Assembly: GCF_023016525.1 (NCBI RefSeq) | Contig: NZ_JALKCG010000002.1 | Coordinates: forward strand, 438,001 to 502,000 | Direction of reading: 5' to 3' | Source: Ancylobacter koreensis | Lineage (GTDB): Bacteria; Pseudomonadota; Alphaproteobacteria; Rhizobiales; Xanthobacteraceae | DNA length: 64,000 nucleotides | Shown here: in pieces, positions 51,701 through 62,027 of the stretch | Numbering within the stretch: position 1 is the stretch's first letter | Layout: each line of letters starts with the position of its first letter | Position numbers and translations under genes: made by a program | The notes under the pieces: model-generated | Database searches by the model: none | The model's input: only the letters and a program-made list of their open reading frames with translations | What the model was told of the DNA's origin: nothing

Positions 51701-54700
51701 ATGGGGGTCGAAGGGTTCTTTGCCAGCGAGGATGAGCGCATCGCGCGCCAGCTCGTTGAGCAGGCGGACCTTATCTTGCAGGCAACCGACGGCGATGCGC
51801 CGGCGCGGTTCGCCAGCCGTTTGTTCGGGCGTGCGGTTGCCGAGGATGTGCGCGTCTACACGCCGCACGAACTCGCCAGCCTCGCGCGGCTTGCCTATGC
51901 GCATCTGAAATTCCGCCGGCGCGACAATTTCGACATCCGTATCGAGCAGCCGCAGACCCAGGAGGGCGGGGAGCGCCTCGGGCGCGTCTCGATCATCCAG
52001 ATCGTCAACGACGACATGCCGTTCCTGCTCGATTCCGTCATGGCGGCGCTCAACGCGCAGGGCGTGACGGCGAGCTTCGTGGTGCACCCCATCCTCGCCG
52101 TCGACCGTGACAATAACGGGCAGGTGACGTCGATTGCGGTCAGCGAGGCGCCCTCGGGCGGCCGGCTGCGGCGCGAGAGCCTGATCCACATCCACATCCC
52201 GCGCATCGAGGACGAGGCCCGCCGCAACGCGCTCGTCGACGACCTGACGGCGGTGCTGAACCAGGTACGCCTCGCGGTGAACGCCTGGCAGCCCATGATG
52301 GCGCAGGTGCGCGCGGCGGTGACCAACCTGACGCTGGCCCCCTCCATGGTGCCGCGCGAGGAGCGCGAGGAGGCGGTTGCCTTCCTCGAATGGCTGCTCG
52401 CCGGCCGCTTTACCTTCCTCGGCTGCCGGCAATATCAGGCGACCGGGGCGTCGTCCGGCGGCGCCCGCCCGGTGCAGTTCGAACGGCGGATGGAGGACGC
52501 GCTCGGCCTGCTCGCCGACGAGGATTTCCGGCTGTTCCGCCGCAACGGCGATTCCCGCAGCGTGAGCGCGGATCTGGGCGAGGCGCTGGCCGAGCCGAGC
52601 CCGCTCATCGTCACCAAGTCGCGCACCGTCTCCACCGTGCACCGGCGCGCCTGGATCGATGTGGTGCTGGTGAAGCGCTACGATTCGCAGGGCCGGGTGG
52701 TCGGCGGCCTGTGCATCGCCGGCCTGTTCACCGCGACTGCCTATACGAGCTCGGTGCGTACCATTCCGCTGCTGCGCCGCAAGGCGTCGAGCGTGCTCTC
52801 GCGCGCCGGCTTCGCGCCGGAAAGCCATTCCGGCCGCGCGCTGGTGAAGGTGCTGGAGACCTATCCGCGCGACGACCTGTTCCAGATCGACGCCAACTCG
52901 CTGTTCCAGTTCGCGCTCGCCATCCTCCAGCTCGACGAGCACCCGCGCGTGCGCCTGCTGGCGCTGAACGAGCGCTTCGACCGCTTCGTCTCCGTGCTCG
53001 TCTTCGTGCCGCGCGACCGTTACGGCTCCGAGGTGCGCGAGAAGATCGGCAACCTGCTGGCGGCGAGCTTCGGCGGCCAGATCGCCGCCTTCCGCCCGCT
53101 CTTCATGGATGGGCCGCTCACCCGCGTGCACTTCATCATCGAGCGCGGGCCGGGCGAGGTGCCGACGGTGAGCCGCGCCAGCCTCGAAGGCGCCATCACC
53201 GACATCATCCGCACCTGGGGTGACGGCGTCTCGGAGGCGCTGGCCGCTTCCTTCCCCGCCGCGCGCATCGGCGAGCTGACCGGGCGCTACGCCAACGCCT
53301 TTCCGGCCGGCTACCAGTCGAGCTACCCGCCCGAGGAGACGATCGAGGACATCAAGCTGATCGAGGGGCTCGGCGATTCCGCCCCGGTCGCCGCCGCCTT
53401 CCGGCCCTCGCCGCTGCGCGAGCGCGACCGCGTGTCGCTCAAGGTGCTGAGCCTCAAGGTGCCGCGCCTGCTCTCCGAGCGCGTGCCGATGCTGGAGGCG
53501 ATGGGCTTCGTCGTCATCGACGAGCGCACCTTCACGGTGAAGCCGGCCGGGAGCCCGCCGGTCTATGCGCACGACATGCTGCTCTCGCGCCGGGGCGGCG
53601 GGGCGATCCCGGTCGACAAGCTGCAGGGCTGGCTGCACGGCACGCTGATGGCGGTGCTGCGCGGGGGCGAGAGCGACGGCTTCAACGGGCTGGCGCTCAC
53701 CGCCCAGCTCGGCTGGCGCGACATCGCGCTGCTGCGCACGCTCGGCCGCTATCTCCGGCAGGCGGGCATTCCCTTCAGCCAGGACTACCTCTGGCAGACG
53801 CTGAACGCGCATCCCGCCATCGTGCAGAAGCTGGTGGCGCTGTTCCACGCCCGCTTCGATCCCGACCAGCCGGACCGCCGGGCCGAGCGGCAGGCGGCGA
53901 TCCGCAGCGAGATCGAGACCGCGCTGATCGAGGTCGCCAGCCTCGACGAGGACCGCATCCTGCGCCGCTTCGCCAATCTGATCGAGGCGGCGGTGCGCAC
54001 CAATTTCTACCAGCGCTCGGCCGACGGTACGCCGCGTCCCGCCATCGCCATCAAGTTCCTCAGCCGCGAGGTGGAGGGGCTGCCGCTGCCGCGCCCCCAC
54101 TTCGAGATCTTCGTCCATTCGCCGCGCGTCGAGGGCGTGCATCTGCGCTTCGGCCGTGTGGCGCGTGGCGGTTTGCGCTGGTCGGACCGGCCGCAGGACT
54201 TCCGCACCGAGGTGCTGGGGCTGGTGAAGGCCCAGCAGGTGAAGAACGCGGTGATCGTGCCGGTGGGCGCCAAGGGCGGATTCGTGCCGAGCCAGCTGCC
54301 CTCCGGGCCGCGCGAGGCGATCCAGGCCGAGGGGGTGGACGCCTACAAGCTGTTCATCGGCAGCCTGCTCGACGTCACCGACGACATCGAGAACGGCGAG
54401 ACGGTGCATCCGCCGCGCACCGTGCGCCACGACGAGGACGACCCCTATCTCGTCGTTGCCGCCGACAAGGGCACGGCGACCTTCTCCGACATCGCCAATA
54501 CGCTCTCCCAGCTGCGCGGCTACTGGCTGGGTGATGCCTTCGCCTCCGGCGGCTCGGTCGGCTATGACCACAAGGCGATGGGCATCACCGCGCGCGGCGC
54601 CTGGGAGGCGGTGCGCCGGCATTTTCGCGAGCTGGACACCGACATCCGCGCCACGCCTTTCACCGTGGTGGGCGTGGGCGACATGTCGGGCGACGTGTTC

Positions 54701-56557
54701 GGCAACGGCATGATCCTGGAGAAGACGATCCGGCTCGTCGCCGCCTTCGACCATCGCGACATCTTCCTCGATCCCAATCCCGACCCTGAAACGTCCTTCC
54801 GCGAGCGGCGGCGGCTGTTCGCGCTGCCGCGCTCGAGCTGGCAGGACTACGACAAGTCGCTGATTTCGGCGGGCGGCGGCGTATTTCCGCGCGCGGCCAA
54901 GAGCATTCCGCTCTCCTTCGCCATGCGCGAGGCGCTCGGCTTCGACAAGAGTTCCGCCTCGCCGGCCGAGGTGATCAGCGCCATCCTGCGCGCGCCGGTC
55001 GACCTTCTGTGGTTCGGCGGCATCGGTACCTATGTGCGCGCCGCCGGCGAGAGCGATGCGCAGGTCGGCGACCGCGCCAATGACGCGGTGCGCGTGACCG
55101 GCGGCGAATTGCGGGCGCGGGTGGTGGGCGAGGGCGCCAATCTCGGCGTCACACAGCGCGGGCGCATCGAGGCGGCGCGGCGCGGCGTGCGGCTCAACAC
55201 CGATGCCATCGACAATTCGGCCGGCGTGAACACCTCGGACATCGAGGTGAACATCAAGATCGCGCTCGGCCCGGCACTGCGCGAGGGCCGGCTCGACGCG
55301 CAGGGGCGCGCCCAGCTCCTCGCCTCGATGACCGGCGACGTCGCCCAGCTCGTGCTCCGTAATAACTACCTGCAGACGCTGGCGCTCTCGCTGGCCGAGC
55401 GGCGCGGCATCGAGGATTTCGGCTTCCAGCAGCGCCTCGTCCAGCGGCTGGAGGCGCGCGGCCTGCTCGACCGGGCGGTCGAGTTCCTGCCCTCCGACGC
55501 CGAGTTCGCCGACCGGCGGGGACGCCGCGAGGGGCTGACGCGCCCGGAGCTGGCGGTGCTGCTCGCCTATGCCAAGCTGACCGCCCATGCCGACCTGCTG
55601 GATGGCGAGGTGCCGGACGATCCCTATCTCGCCCGCGAACTCGCCGCCTATTTCCCCTCCGAGCTGCGCGAGCGGTTCCCGGACGGCATCGAGCATCACC
55701 GGCTGCGCCGCGAGATCGTCGCCACCCGCCTGTCCAACGCCATGATCAACCATGGCGGCCCGACCTTCGTCACCCGCCTCGCCGACGAGACCGGCGCCGA
55801 TATCGGCTCCATCGCCAAGGCCTTCGCCGTGGTGCGCGACGGCTTCGGCCTTGCCGCGCTCAATGCCGAAGTCGACGCGCTGGACGGGCAGGTGCACGGC
55901 GGCGTGCAGCTCGACCTCTACGGCGTCGTGCAGGACATGCTGATCGACCGCAGCATCTGGTTCCTGCGCAATGTCGACCTCTCCGGCAGCCTCGACGAGC
56001 TGGTCGCCCACTACACCGCCGGCATCGCGCCGGTGGAGAAGGTACTCACCGGCCCGGTGCGCGAGCTTCTGCCCGAGGAGACCCGCACCCTGCACGATGC
56101 CCGCGTGATGCAGTGGACGCAGGCTGGCGTGCCCGAGCCGCTGGCGCGCCGCATCGCCCGCCTGCCGGCGGTGGAGAGCGCCACCGACATCGTGCTCATC
56201 GCCGAGCGCACCAAATCCTCGCTGGCGGACGTCGCCGTCACCTTCTTCGCGGTGGCGGTGCTGTTCCGGCTCGACCGCATCCTCGGCCCGGCGCGGGCGC
56301 TGGCCGTGACCGACCATTACGACCGGCTCGCGCTGGAGCGGGCGCTGACCTCCTTCGAGACGGCCGTGCGCCGGCTGACCGCCGAGGTGATCGCCGAGCA
56401 CGGCGCGGGGGTCGCCGGCGTCTCCGCCTGGACGCGGGCGCGCGGCGACATCGTGGAGCGCGCGCGCGGCGGCATCTACGAGATCGCCGCTTCCGGGCTC
56501 AGCGTCTCCAAGCTGTCGGTGGCGGCGAGCCTGCTCGGCGACCTCGTGCGCGGCTGA
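51701..56557 (+). CDS. gdhB: NAD-specific glutamate dehydrogenase, large (GDH-180) type
   Basis: Oxidative deamination of glutamate to 2-oxoglutarate. The 1618-residue size is that of the large GDH-180 class. N-terminal ACT-like regulatory parts (about 30-700) precede the catalytic core, with FGRVARGGLRWSDRPQDFR, GAKGGFVPSQLP, GDMSGDVFGNG (NAD domain) and DLLWFGGIGTYVRA, then a long helical C-terminal domain. A minus-strand open frame of almost equal length inside it is a codon-bias shadow. The gene symbol follows common usage for this class. Confidence 0.95.
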   Translation: MGVEGFFASEDERIARQLVEQADLILQATDGDAPARFASRLFGRAVAEDVRVYTPHELASLARLAYAHLKFRRRDNFDIRIEQPQTQEGGERLGRVSIIQIVNDDMPFLLDSVMAALNAQGVTASFVVHPILAVDRDNNGQVTSIAVSEAPSGGRLRRESLIHIHIPRIEDEARRNALVDDLTAVLNQVRLAVNAWQPMMAQVRAAVTNLTLAPSMVPREEREEAVAFLEWLLAGRFTFLGCRQYQATGASSGGARPVQFERRMEDALGLLADEDFRLFRRNGDSRSVSADLGEALAEPSPLIVTKSRTVSTVHRRAWIDVVLVKRYDSQGRVVGGLCIAGLFTATAYTSSVRTIPLLRRKASSVLSRAGFAPESHSGRALVKVLETYPRDDLFQIDANSLFQFALAILQLDEHPRVRLLALNERFDRFVSVLVFVPRDRYGSEVREKIGNLLAASFGGQIAAFRPLFMDGPLTRVHFIIERGPGEVPTVSRASLEGAITDIIRTWGDGVSEALAASFPAARIGELTGRYANAFPAGYQSSYPPEETIEDIKLIEGLGDSAPVAAAFRPSPLRERDRVSLKVLSLKVPRLLSERVPMLEAMGFVVIDERTFTVKPAGSPPVYAHDMLLSRRGGGAIPVDKLQGWLHGTLMAVLRGGESDGFNGLALTAQLGWRDIALLRTLGRYLRQAGIPFSQDYLWQTLNAHPAIVQKLVALFHARFDPDQPDRRAERQAAIRSEIETALIEVASLDEDRILRRFANLIEAAVRTNFYQRSADGTPRPAIAIKFLSREVEGLPLPRPHFEIFVHSPRVEGVHLRFGRVARGGLRWSDRPQDFRTEVLGLVKAQQVKNAVIVPVGAKGGFVPSQLPSGPREAIQAEGVDAYKLFIGSLLDVTDDIENGETVHPPRTVRHDEDDPYLVVAADKGTATFSDIANTLSQLRGYWLGDAFASGGSVGYDHKAMGITARGAWEAVRRHFRELDTDIRATPFTVVGVGDMSGDVFGNGMILEKTIRLVAAFDHRDIFLDPNPDPETSFRERRRLFALPRSSWQDYDKSLISAGGGVFPRAAKSIPLSFAMREALGFDKSSASPAEVISAILRAPVDLLWFGGIGTYVRAAGESDAQVGDRANDAVRVTGGELRARVVGEGANLGVTQRGRIEAARRGVRLNTDAIDNSAGVNTSDIEVNIKIALGPALREGRLDAQGRAQLLASMTGDVAQLVLRNNYLQTLALSLAERRGIEDFGFQQRLVQRLEARGLLDRAVEFLPSDAEFADRRGRREGLTRPELAVLLAYAKLTAHADLLDGEVPDDPYLARELAAYFPSELRERFPDGIEHHRLRREIVATRLSNAMINHGGPTFVTRLADETGADIGSIAKAFAVVRDGFGLAALNAEVDALDGQVHGGVQLDLYGVVQDMLIDRSIWFLRNVDLSGSLDELVAHYTAGIAPVEKVLTGPVRELLPEETRTLHDARVMQWTQAGVPEPLARRIARLPAVESATDIVLIAERTKSSLADVAVTFFAVAVLFRLDRILGPARALAVTDHYDRLALERALTSFETAVRRLTAEVIAEHGAGVAGVSAWTRARGDIVERARGGIYEIAASGLSVSKLSVAASLLGDLVRG

Positions 56558-56598
56558 CGGGACTCCTTTCGCTCGCCGTATAAAAAGGGTGGGGATCG

Positions 56599-57042
56599 CT
56601 AATCCAAATCTTCAAGCGTCACCGTTCGGCTGCGCAAAGCGTCCAGATCTTTCCATTCAGACGAGCCGGGCGTCAGTATTTTCCAATATTTCCAACCATT
56701 TAGATTGGTTGCCTTTCCGCTCTTCGTCTTCGCTATGGCACTTATTGCGGCTGATGGAGAAGAAAATTTCGAGCCGTTTAAACTCCATTCCCCATCTATG
56801 ATTGATCCTTCATATTCTTTATTGTTATATATCGTCTTGAATATGGTGCCATGCGGAAGCGAAATTTCATTATTTTTCCATGGCCTTAGAGATTTTGTAT
56901 TATTTTTCAATTTTAAATCGTCGCTATCAATGTTCAATAACCTTCGCAATATATCGTTTGGTGTTTCAGAAAAAGATAGTTTTGCAGCGACTATCGCTTT
57001 GTAGACGTCGATATCAATTTTAATGCTCTCATATCGTGCCAT
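56599..57042 (-). CDS. SeqA-N/RHH-like plus RAMA-domain protein in an AT-rich island
   Basis: A 147-residue protein unlike its neighbours in base use: 16 of 60 bases are G or C at 56881-56940. Residues about 5-40 read IKIDIDVYKAIVAAK and then ETPNDILRRLL, close in pattern to the SeqA N-terminal dimer/ribbon-helix-helix segment. Residues about 52-135 match the RAMA/DUF4357 pattern: LPHGTIF, a GSIIDGEWSLNGSKFSSPSAA core, and LNGWKYWKI. RAMA domains are predicted readers of modified DNA and usually accompany methylases. No methylase is adjacent. A consensus -35 lies upstream. The function is unknown. Confidence 0.72.
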   Translation of the reverse strand: MARYESIKIDIDVYKAIVAAKLSFSETPNDILRRLLNIDSDDLKLKNNTKSLRPWKNNEISLPHGTIFKTIYNNKEYEGSIIDGEWSLNGSKFSSPSAAISAIAKTKSGKATNLNGWKYWKILTPGSSEWKDLDALRSRTVTLEDLD

Positions 57043-57088
57043 TGCTCAATCATCTCTTTGGATGAGTAATTTGAGTAAATTGAGATTA

Positions 57089-57094
57089 TGTCAA
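57089..57094 (-). promoter_or_regulatory. Consensus -35 element for the RAMA-domain gene
   Basis: TTGACA on the minus strand lies 47 bases before the ATG, followed 17 bases later by the weak -10 AATTAC. The region is AT-rich, like the gene. A T-run overlapping it could be the end of the cytochrome c terminator. Confidence 0.4.
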
Positions 57095-57195
57095 AAAAGT
57101 GTCTGTCGTCGCGCCCGGGCGATGACCCAGATGACGCGATTCAGCGACCCGCGTGGTCCAAGCAGCGATGATCGGGGGGGGGCGACGCCGAACCC

Positions 57196-57708
57196 TCACC
57201 CCATGCAGGCATCTTCGGTCTTGCTGTAGCCGGCCGGTTTCGGCTCGTTCTTCTGCGGCTGGCCGCGGCCGAGCGCGCCGTCCGAGCGGGCGCGCAGATA
57301 GACGAAGATGGCGTCGATGTAGCACATCACGTTGGGATTGCTGCCGAGCGCCGGCATCACGAGGTCCTGGCTGGCGCTCACGTTCTTCTTGCCGTTGGTG
57401 ACGGTGTCGAGGAACTGGCTGTAGCTCAGCGTCTGCAGCGCATCGACCAGCGAGGGGCCGAAGCTGGAGCCCAGCCCGTCCGGGCCGTGGCACTGCATGC
57501 AGTTGGCGGTGTAGCGGATGTAACCGACCGAGGTGTACCAGTCGACCGTGCCGTCCGGCTCGATCTTGAAGGTGGGGTTGCCATCCTTGTCGGCGTACTC
57601 GCCGTCAGACACGCTGGCGACGGCGGGGTCGCCCGTTCCGTCCGCCCCGGCGGGCGCGGCCGAGACGAGGAAAAGGGCGGCCATGGCCGCCCAGGTCTTT
57701 ATCCGCAT
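57196..57708 (-). CDS. Four-cysteine c-type cytochrome, methanol metabolism-related family
   Basis: A 170-residue periplasmic monohaem cytochrome c with signal peptide (about 1-22). Haem is bound at C70-x-x-C73-H74 (CMQCH), with M118 or M128 as probable axial ligand. Two more cysteines, C129 and C168, fit the four-Cys family found next to methanol dehydrogenase genes in methylotrophs. Here no xoxF or mxa gene is near, so the electron donor is unknown. It lies between the AT-rich island and acs. Confidence 0.85.
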   Translation of the reverse strand: MRIKTWAAMAALFLVSAAPAGADGTGDPAVASVSDGEYADKDGNPTFKIEPDGTVDWYTSVGYIRYTANCMQCHGPDGLGSSFGPSLVDALQTLSYSQFLDTVTNGKKNVSASQDLVMPALGSNPNVMCYIDAIFVYLRARSDGALGRGQPQKNEPKPAGYSKTEDACMG

Positions 57709-57834
57709 GCGATCCTCCCATGCGCCCCGATTATCGTTGTGGCGTCGTGAAGGATGGGGCGGCGGAGTATGGTCATGCCACGGGAAGGGACGGTCAAGCC
57801 GCCCGTTCCCGCGGGCCGATGATGTGTCGGTGGC

Positions 57835-59793
<1,959 letters not shown>

Positions 59794-59960
59794 GGCGTTT
59801 CTTCCCCTTTGGGCAGGCGCTGACGCGCCTCTCTTGCTGCCCCGGATTATGGGGAGCGGGTTCCGACTGGACAAGCCGGAGGGGCGCTGGACTTTGGTCG
59901 GTATGTAGTTGCGCGGACGGGAGCCGGCGTCCGGCGGCGGTATCGCGAGCCTCGTGCCCC

Positions 59961-60620
59961 TTAGCAGCGTGGACGCCAGACGCTGGTGCGCTTGATCTCG
60001 GCGTCCTCCAGCTCGCGCGAGACCGGCACGCCGTATTCGGCGATTTTTTCGAGCCTCTCACGCGGCAGGTAGGAGCGGCCGGGATCGCCGATCCATACAG
60101 CGGCGCCGCGGGCCGAAAGCGCCTCCAGCCAGCCGAAGACGCGGGCGGCGAGGTCGTGCTCATAGGCGATGTCGCCGGCGAGGATCACCTCCCAGCCGAA
60201 GTCCGTACCGACGACGTCGGCCGCGAGCACCTCGACCGGCGCGCCGTTCTCCCATGCGTTAAGGGCGATGGCCGCATGGGCGAAGGGGTCGATGTCGGCG
60301 CAGGCGACCGCCGCCGCACCGGCCTTCATGGCGGCGATGCCGACAAGGCCGGAGCCGGCGGCGAAATCCAGCACGCGCCGCCCGCGCACCGTCTCGGGGT
60401 GGTCCAGAACATAGCGCGCCAGCGCCTGCCCGCCGGCCCAGGCGAAGGCCCAGAAGGGCGGCGGCAGGCCGATCTCGCCCAGCTCCTCCTCGGTGCGCTG
60501 CCAGATCGGCAGCGATTCGGCGGCGAGGTGGAGGCGAATCTCGGGAACCAGCGGCGGTGCCAGAAGATGCGTCTCGGCGCGGATGAAGGCGGCGGGATCA
60601 GCGAGGGGCCGCCGCGTCAC
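59961..60620 (-). CDS. Nnt1/ETFB-lysine-type class I SAM methyltransferase
   Basis: A 219-residue methyltransferase with the SAM motif [15 protein letters not shown] and a following ACADIDPFA; it resembles the METTL20/Nnt1 group that methylates lysines of the electron-transfer flavoprotein beta subunit. The target in this organism is inference. It starts at a GTG (60620) that overlaps the stop of the EVE gene by four bases (GTGA), so translation is coupled. Confidence 0.82.
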
Positions 60621-61036
60621 CGCGTGCCGCCGGCCATGTCGAGCACGATCTCCCATTCCGCGTCGGTGACGGGTTGCACGGAGAGGCGGGAATATTTCAG
60701 TAGCGCCATCTCGGCGAGGCGCGGCTCCGCTTTCACGGCGGCCAGCGTCACCGGGTTCTTCAGCGTGGCGACCGCCTTGAGGTCGACCATGACGAACTTG
60801 CCCGAGGGGTCGGACGGGTCTGGATAGGCCTCGCGGATCACCTCGACGATGCCGACGATCTCCTTGCCCTCGTTGGAATGATAGAAGAAGCCGTGCTCGC
60901 CGGTCTTCATGGCGAGAAGCTGCTGCTTGGCGAGGTGGTTGCGCACGCCGTCCCAATGGGTGCCCTTGGCGCCGGCGGCGAGCTGCATCTCCCACGACCA
61001 TTTGAACGGTTCGGACTTGTAGAGCCAGTGGGCCAT
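60617..61036 (-). CDS. EVE-domain protein
   Basis: A 139-residue single-domain EVE protein (PUA-like fold). It opens HWLYKSEPFKWSW and has GTHWDGVRNHLAKQQL and GFFYHSNEGKEIVGIVEV, the binding-pocket segments. EVE domains are related to YTH and are predicted to bind modified bases in nucleic acids. It is in a leftward run tsaD-gpsA-EVE-methyltransferase with overlaps or a 1-base gap. The function in the run is unknown. Confidence 0.9.
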   Translation of the reverse strand: MAHWLYKSEPFKWSWEMQLAAGAKGTHWDGVRNHLAKQQLLAMKTGEHGFFYHSNEGKEIVGIVEVIREAYPDPSDPSGKFVMVDLKAVATLKNPVTLAAVKAEPRLAEMALLKYSRLSVQPVTDAEWEIVLDMAGGTR

Positions 61037-61037
61037 C

Positions 61038-62027
61038 TCACGCTTCCGCTTTCTGGGGACGGGCCAGCAGCGACCCGATCGCCTGTTCGATATCGCTGCG
61101 CCCGGCCAGCACCGCCTCGACCGCGCGGGCGATGGGCATGTCGACACCGCGCGCGTCGGCCATCGCGACGAGAGCGCTCGCCGTCAGCGCCCCCTCGGCC
61201 AGCCTTCCGCTGGGGTGCAGCCCGCCGGCGCGGCCGAGATCGAGCCCGAGCGCGTAGTTGCGCGACTGCGCCGTCGAGCAGGTGAGGATGAGGTCGCCGA
61301 GGCCGGAAAGGCCGGTGAGCGTCTCGGCGCGGGCGCCATAGGCCTTGCCGAAGCGCATCAGCTCGGCGAAGCCCCGCGCGATCAGCGCCGCTCCCGCGCT
61401 CGCGCCGAGCCCGCGCCCGCCGACGATGCCGGCGGCGATGGCGAGCACGTTCTTGGCCGCGCCGCCGATCTCGACGCCGCGCACGTCGTCGGAATGGTAG
61501 AGCCGGAACGAGCCCGAGCCGAGCGCCGCCGCCAGCCCCTCGGCGAGATCGAGGTCGCGCGCGGCGAGGGTGACGGCGGTCGGCAGGCCGGCGGCGACAT
61601 CCGCCGCGAAGCTGGGGCCGGAGAGGATGGCGGGCGTCGCCTCGGGGCACGCCTCGGCCAGCACCTGCGTCATGAACAGCGAGGTGCCGCGCTCGATGCC
61701 CTTGGCGCAGGTGACGAGCGGGATGCCGGCGGAGAGGTGCGGGGCGAGTTCGCCCGCCACCGCGCGGCTCGCCTGCGCGGGCACCACCATGAGCACGGCG
61801 TCAACGCCGGCGAGGTCGGCGAGGCGCGCCGTCGGCGTCACCGCGGGCGCGAGCTCGACGCCGGGCAAATGCAGGCGGTTTTCGCGCGAGCGCGCCATCG
61901 CCGCGATGGCCTCGGCGTCGCGGCCCCAGAGCACCACCTCCCGCCCCGCGCGGGCGCTCGCATTGGCGAGCGCGGTGCCCCAGGCGCCGGCGCCGACCAC
62001 GCCGATAGAAGCGAAACCTGCGGGCAT
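61038..62027 (-). CDS. gpsA: Glycerol-3-phosphate dehydrogenase [NAD(P)+]
   Basis: Makes sn-glycerol-3-phosphate from dihydroxyacetone phosphate for phospholipids. The 329-residue protein has the NAD motif [19 protein letters not shown], the catalytic lysine region [13 protein letters not shown], and [13 protein letters not shown]. Its ATG overlaps the stop of tsaD by one base (TGATG); pairing of tsaD and gpsA is usual in alphaproteobacteria. Confidence 0.96.

Follow-up and report, generated by a model that had tools for sequence, protein, structure and literature searches.

The question raised by this locus is why a short AT-rich gene, the product of which joins a SeqA-type N-terminal segment to a RAMA-type C-terminal part, stands in a GC-rich chromosome, and what its protein may do there. 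Across the window, by which the whole 64-kb stretch of DNA analysed is meant, the GC content is 69.6%, as against 39.4% in the ORF of this gene and 40.5% at its third codon positions, and the stretch from 56462 to 57312 is the only part of the window where the GC content calculated over 444 bp falls below 50%. This agrees with a preliminary description of the locus, which had pointed out an AT-rich island and had correctly counted 16 G/C bases in 56881-56940; the end that it gave to the island, 57110, takes in the ORF plus its promoter, the ORF itself starting at 57042. The gene is flanked on the left by what we take to be an NAD-glutamate dehydrogenase-type gene and on the right by a presumably c-type cytochrome-like gene, followed by a gene that we assume to be of the acetyl-CoA synthetase type (Table 1). 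Neither an Rfam scan of 56000-58000 nor a tRNA search of the whole window returned any match.

Table 1. Positions in the window of the SeqA_N-RAMA gene, its parts, its promoter elements and its neighbours
Feature	Position	Strand	Basis
Left neighbour, 1618-aa ORF	51701..56557	+	ORF list; its end matched in 30/30 genus genomes
SeqA_N-RAMA gene, 147 aa, 39.4% GC	56599..57042	-	ORF list, Pfam, GC scan
RAMA domain (predicted fold), residues 55-139	56626..56880	-	Pfam, hhalign to CcrM-type C-termini, Foldseek MPND
R137, at the place of CcrM R350	56632..56634	-	Alignment; R in 51/59 members
W117 and W120, at the places of CcrM W332 and W335	56683..56694	-	Alignment; W in 57/59 and 56/59 members
Linker, residues 39-54	56881..56928	-	Length, low pLDDT
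SeqA_N domain, residues 7-38 (oligomerisation fold in SeqA)	56929..57024	-	Pfam, PDB profile, Foldseek 1xrx
38-nt promoter block, 37/38 identical to G234	57064..57101	-	Sequence comparison
9-bp direct repeats CTCAATTTA (57084-57076) and CTCAAATTA (57075-57067), then CTC	57065..57085	-	Spacing tests
TTGACA, -35-like hexamer just upstream of the repeats	57089..57094	-	Read from sequence
Right neighbour, 170-aa ORF with CxxCH	57196..57708	-	ORF list, motif read in sequence
Next neighbour ORF	57835..59874	-	ORF list, genus search

Both domains that had been proposed for the protein were recovered. Pfam SeqA_N aligned with residues 7-38 above its cut-off (E 1.7e-6, 27.7 bits, cut-off 23), and Pfam RAMA aligned with residues 72-139 (E 4.4e-6) at 27.0 bits, below its cut-off of 35.2, the assignment being supported by the predicted fold and by the comparison of the RAMA part with three CcrM-type C-termini, one of them from the host genome, which gave a probability of 94% and an E value of 1.2e-7 in hhalign. 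Of the NCBIfam SeqA model only the portion matching residues 6-50 could be aligned (19.8 bits, cut-off 185). The Pfam scan of the 147-aa protein found no SeqA C-terminal hemimethylated-GATC domain, the C-terminal part being RAMA, and a PHROGs search of the same protein gave no match. At E<=0.01, RAMA was matched by 55 and SeqA_N by 35 of the 59 members of a family alignment, and the family profile matched the SeqA chains 1xrx (2.6e-5) and 3fmt (5.8e-5) in the PDB, with MPND at 0.71. Structure prediction, which the preliminary description had recommended, pointed to the same two folds. The full-length AlphaFold model, based on the 59 family sequences, had a mean pLDDT of 85.4 and a pTM of 0.57, and its Foldseek search placed SeqA-N (1xrx) at rank 5 (probability 0.99, E 0.54, rmsd 1.3 over 34 columns), with no RAMA structure, MPND included, among the best 50 matches. 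When the RAMA part was modelled by itself (pLDDT 82.1), the three best matches were all MPND-RAMA (7ydt_A, 7ydw_A and 7ydw_B; probability 1.00, TM 0.58-0.62, E 0.04-0.06), so that the Foldseek E values of both domains lie above 0.01 despite the high probabilities. A mere chance resemblance to SeqA_N was ruled out, as sequence profile and predicted fold are concordant. The N-terminal part of the protein thus matches the SeqA_N oligomerisation domain, and its C-terminal part is predicted to adopt the RAMA fold.

Conservation within the 59 members singles out the core of SeqA_N, with D10 in 59, L32 in 58 and R33 in 55 of them, and 51 carry F at what is presumably the place of SeqA I21, as numbered with the help of the PDB profile alignment. 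The SeqA_N strand is acidic, and its invariant D10, present also in SeqA, would speak against a contact between this strand and DNA. This bears on the preliminary description, which had seen in the N-terminal segment a dimerisation and DNA-associating region of SeqA type: the domain match stands, and the role of the segment in SeqA is oligomerisation and not DNA reading (PMC6225831). The layout described for SeqA, with oligomerisation in residues 1-33, a linker in 34-64 and DNA binding in 65-181 (PMC6225831), is shared by the protein studied here, which likewise has an N-terminal oligomerisation domain by sequence and predicted fold, a flexible linker and a C-terminal DNA-binding domain. It departs from SeqA (PF17206 plus the SeqA C-domain) in that the C-domain of SeqA binds hemimethylated GATC while RAMA takes this place here, and in its shorter linker (16 residues; 12-40, median 18, in the 59 members), within which residues 41-50 form the block of lowest pLDDT (53) in the full-length model.

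The closest comparison for the C-terminal part is the RAMA domain (PF18755) at the end of CcrM, to which it is related by profile and by the retention of residues at the places of W332, W335 and R350, the last of these being putatively matched by its spacing in the CcrM-type protein of the host (18 residues past the first W). In CcrM, W332 touches the non-target strand, R350 hydrogen-bonds the phosphate backbone of that strand and W335 belongs to the same segment (PMC10359602), and the RAMA domain as a whole is described as a contact with the DNA backbone (PMC9963953; PMC10359602). Unlike CcrM, the protein has its RAMA domain without a methylase and bears an oligomerisation head instead; MPND, which provides the best structural matches, differs in being a mouse protein with an MPN domain and is 21-22% identical.

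The history of the locus was followed in 30 genomes of the genus, in all of which the end of the left neighbour lies within 4 kb of the acetyl-CoA synthetase-type gene. The SeqA_N-RAMA gene occupies this site in the window's genome and in one other, G234, an outcome of the comparison with sister genomes that the preliminary description had called for. In the other 28 genomes the spacer measures 66 to 3806 bp; none of these has a RAMA gene in it, and the cytochrome-like gene is found there in G165 only. In G195 the same spacer holds a gene of 38.7% GC with a TIR domain (L206:1613-2476; TIR_2 3.6e-10). Given these varied contents across the genus, the site is a spot of gene turnover. No phage gene was recognised at it. 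An island peculiar to the strain was ruled out by the presence of the gene at the same place in G234. A third member of the genus, G120, has a distant copy elsewhere, the adjoining genes of which are shared with the viral contig L060.

Comparison of the two alleles at the site showed a dS of 1.42 (1.416) and a dN of 0.193 for the RAMA gene, against dS values of 0.20 in the cytochrome-like gene, 0.26 in the dehydrogenase end and 0.20 in the synthetase end, and the short spacers on both sides of the gene and its promoter block are poorly alignable. These data led to the rejection of a history in which the gene was acquired once and then simply inherited, and a separate arrival of the two alleles, or an allele exchange, appears to fit better. 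With a dN/dS of about 0.14 the gene is under purifying selection, and both protein and promoter are constrained, although the alleles are more diverged than the flanking genes. These values weigh against the gene being a neutral AT-rich passenger, an idea that its standing as a single gene without partners, at the site in two of the 30 genomes, might otherwise suggest; as the promoter block is also conserved at 37 of 38 positions while synonymous sites are near saturation, such a passenger is very improbable.

Beyond the genus, a protein search of the Xanthobacteraceae-level family matched 5 of 296 genomes, the window's own included, three of the five belonging to its genus. A gene unique to this genome was ruled out by this search, and lateral acquisition, as put forward in the preliminary description, is supported, along with absence from most sisters. 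The description of the protein as an orphan has to be given up: with that of the window gene, at least 76 distinct proteins have the two domains, the 75 others coming mainly from Alphaproteobacteria and being encoded on chromosomes, plasmids and phages. The scans gave 56 loci on named genome contigs and 4, 3 and 11, overlapping, on viral contigs. When 14 loci without a match to the family profile had been filtered out, 93 with a match were left, from which 14 were removed, as partial matches or duplicate contigs, to give 79; without L123 and L125, which are identical to L088 and L099, 77 loci were retained, encoding 75 distinct proteins in addition to that of the window. By their names, 48 of the 56 contigs are alphaproteobacterial, two are given only as Proteobacteria/Pseudomonadota and six belong to other groups, mostly metagenome bins, a share biased by a query built from relatives in this class. 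Relatives were also found by protein search on three plasmids, one of which, from Variovorax, is an exception to Alphaproteobacteria. The family genes depart from the GC content of their loci by a median of -5.5 points (77 loci), and the low GC content of the window gene is extreme for the family. In L036 (1498-2862) a similar RAMA domain closes a 455-residue ORF, the earlier part of which looks helicase- or nuclease-like by eye. In L035 and L097 the gene stands 590 and 578 bp past an acetolactate-synthase-like gene, named by eye, a shared position that suggests it was inherited vertically in these two loci. A literature search found no paper on a SeqA_N-RAMA protein with weak queries that matched mostly the SeqAn software or unrelated RamA papers.

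The promoter of the gene provided a finding that goes beyond the preliminary description. On the coding strand, positions 57094-57064 read TTGACA TAAT CTCAATTTA CTCAAATTA CTC, and at up to 3 mismatches the array has a single match in the host genome, which is its own promoter. Since an EM motif search had yielded nothing but AT-rich strings, spacing tests were used to define the repeat. For these tests, the 77 loci without L076 and L082, the upstream regions of which were at least 70% identical to others, were joined by the window to give 76 regions; the family members are related and the loci not independent, merging having been done at that identity only (two removed). Of the 76 family upstream regions, 25 contain tandem 9-bp repeats in which 8 or more of the 9 positions match, compared with 4.1% of 564 control upstreams, which were delimited with a greedy ORF caller, often fall in coding sequence and are unmatched in composition, and with 0.9% of the composition-matched shuffles. 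Periods of 10 and 11 were found in 0 of 76 regions and a period of 8 in 14 of 76, versus 6.9% of controls.

These arrays have in common an ACT that recurs at 9-bp intervals, in either orientation. The pair ACT-N6-ACT is present in 42 of the 76 family upstreams, that of the window gene included, versus 4.3 expected by dinucleotide shuffle (z 20) and 16 of the 564 control upstreams, which belong to other ORFs of these loci; it is absent from the remaining 34. The 18-bp harmonic is seen in 30 of 76 (z 14.5), and gaps of 0, 2, 9, 11 and 18 between ACTs are raised too, partly since some units are ACTACT. Three ACT units were counted in 17 of 76 family regions and 2 of 564 controls; ACT-N6-ACT-N6-ACT is absent from the window, where the first unit of the array starts with TCT. 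The pairs concentrate in front of the gene, with 70 in the final 100 bp before the start (9.2/kb) versus 0.16/kb beyond 1.5 kb, as counted in 76 loci with the window and G234 left out. A small excess of 7 ACT-N6-ACT pairs lies 400-500 bp past the start codon and perhaps belongs to the promoter of the gene that follows. TTGA[CT] stands at the array or shortly before it in 17 of the 42 repeat-bearing loci (3.8 expected). The arrangement was absent upstream of 15 of 15 seqA genes, which, together with the scattered and mobile nature of the family, sets the latter apart from SeqA; upstream of RAMA-only genes it was found in 3 of 25, with a longer stretch of 180 bases scanned, and a different kind of 9-bp tandem repeat precedes two further RAMA-only genes. 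GANTC sites number 40 in 11,700 upstream bases, one being in the promoter region of the window gene and none in that of G234.

Such an array is the trace expected of a self-repressing oligomeric protein, and it may well be bound by this protein itself. Omega and other ribbon-helix-helix repressors recognise a sequence in the promoter of their own gene (PMC3874152), and they share repeats in this position with the window gene and 41 others of the 76. Omega resembles the protein in being small and in binding cooperatively to repeats in its own promoter (PMC3874152), a behaviour that the window protein would share; it differs in using heptad repeats and an RHH motif for DNA binding (PMC3874152), as compared with a 9-bp repeat and an acidic strand here. 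This likeness could mean that the gene is a plain repressor derived from a phage or plasmid and left on the chromosome, with no role in DNA modification. The two-domain gene is found on twelve contigs of viral collections, three of which share their stretch with a bacterial contig, and in one sequenced phage, Rhizobium phage RHph_X2_26, and the confinement of the array to its own promoter in the host genome points the same way; since the site has no recognised phage gene and RAMA would be an unusual choice for such a repressor, this reading is held to be somewhat unlikely.

Whether the protein reads modified DNA, as the preliminary description proposed, depends on what RAMA domains recognise. 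That RAMA reads 6mA is itself a prediction (PMC11037411); one study reports no 6mA preference for MPND, and the RAMA binding so far reported there is not sequence-specific (PMC9963953). A Wolbachia RAMA domain with a partial match to DUF2924 has been termed a transposon-encoded DNA-binding domain (PMC11342252). The proposed reader thus keeps its standing as a prediction on RAMA, with the CcrM domain touching the backbone and the MPND preference unconfirmed (PMC9963953; PMC10359602). It had further been stated that the gene is without a methylase, and this is true at the locus, where the ORFs of 52000-62000, named by eye, include no adjacent methylase or nuclease. In the family it does not hold throughout: in 9 of 77 loci an adenine methylase is encoded no more than 1.5 kb away, which makes 9 in 219 kb versus 2 in 587 kb farther out (binomial 2.5e-4), a contrast that leans toward methylation reading, given methylase profiles built locally from 8 near and 2 far seed proteins and two close relatives, L064 and L065, among the nine loci. 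An initial regular expression had overlooked one true HsdM. In a Pfam search of the nearest neighbours (150 proteins, 76 loci), N6_Mtase was the commonest domain (4 of 150), followed by terminase domains (3). In phage RHph_X2_26 (L029:6934-8531) an annotated DNA adenine methylase is directly upstream of the SeqA_N-RAMA gene.

In the host genome, the one N6_N4 methylase match is the CcrM-type protein, which has the genome's only RAMA above cut-off and, at E<=0.001, is the sole RAMA match besides the window gene. There is also one N6_Mtase match, in a large ORF (G000:C11:503316-503879; L133, L224); judged by eye, this ORF might encode a restriction-modification enzyme of fused type.

Profile searches placed these observations in a wider frame. 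Some match was found in 45 of 385 genomes across the class, ten of which, the window's own included, span both domains, the rest being mostly RAMA alone. Across the phylum, 76 of 398 genomes matched: five span both domains, all in the window's class; 48 by hand count match at the N-terminus only, all in other classes; and the remaining 23 match in the RAMA part, of which 22 belong to classes other than the window's. As 15 of 16 inspected N-terminal matches are ordinary SeqA, the search pattern leaving one unresolved, the head in this sample pairs with a GATC-binding domain elsewhere and with RAMA here. This division, the company of RAMA in the CcrM-type methylase and the methylases near nine loci would suit an alphaproteobacterial analogue of SeqA that reads methylated or hemimethylated adenine, here chiefly in CcrM-type GANTC, and coats or sequesters such DNA. 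We regard this as unlikely, because 68 of 77 loci have no such methylase within 1.5 kb, the make-up of the methylase profiles and the relatedness of L064 and L065 temper the enrichment, and the 6mA preference of RAMA is unconfirmed (PMC9963953); the patchy distribution in family and class, moreover, leaves no core cell-cycle role for such an analogue.

The methylases could also belong to restriction systems. HsdM-type methylases are divergent from the family gene in L027, L069 and L074 and one is nearby in L077; the PADLOC candidate PDC-S14 aligns to the RAMA part of the window protein (3.3e-7), and a TIR-domain gene takes the same spacer in G195. The protein might on these grounds be a small solo member of restriction or anti-phage loci that regulates or guides an adjoining restriction-modification or immune system. 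As no partner gene adjoins it here, and as several relatives stand amid phage-type genes (L003, L060 and L062), this is unlikely, and a place in defence or silencing, also raised in the preliminary description, is circumstantial.

The explanation preferred here, and considered rather probable, is that of a mobile, oligomerising, self-repressing DNA-binding protein with a SeqA-like layout that uses RAMA as its DNA grip. The short N-terminal SeqA_N domain would pair and chain monomers, and beyond the flexible linker the C-terminal RAMA would grip the DNA backbone as that of CcrM does. Oligomers would bind the 9-bp direct repeats of their own promoter and repress it, so that the protein is kept scarce. 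Its further targets would be other DNA in phages, plasmids and loci of defence type, most probably DNA that adenine methylation labels as self or foreign. Oligomerisation, binding of the repeats by the protein itself, repression and, above all, methylation sensing are steps that we infer. An operator role sits badly with the reported non-sequence-specific binding of RAMA (PMC9963953), the acidic strand of SeqA_N makes it doubtful which of the two domains would read the repeats, and methylation reading is possible in view of the adenine methylases near 9 of 77 loci. A bolder form of this explanation, in which a SeqA head joined to a CcrM-type DNA grip makes mobile, self-limiting filament formers that read adenine-methylated DNA and dose themselves through the 9-bp promoter repeats, seems a long shot.

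If true, it would give Alphaproteobacteria a SeqA-like system, built on the same head that in Gammaproteobacteria works with Dam/GATC. Most Alphaproteobacteria have their GANTC sites methylated by CcrM, and an origin control of Dam/SeqA type has been suggested in Agrobacterium, in passages that name no SeqA counterpart (PMC11514494). A family with a SeqA head and a CcrM DNA domain would be a concrete candidate for such a counterpart, and its 9-bp repeat promoter, which over half of the family genes possess, is a candidate operator and may offer a DNA target for RAMA, a domain with disputed binding preferences.
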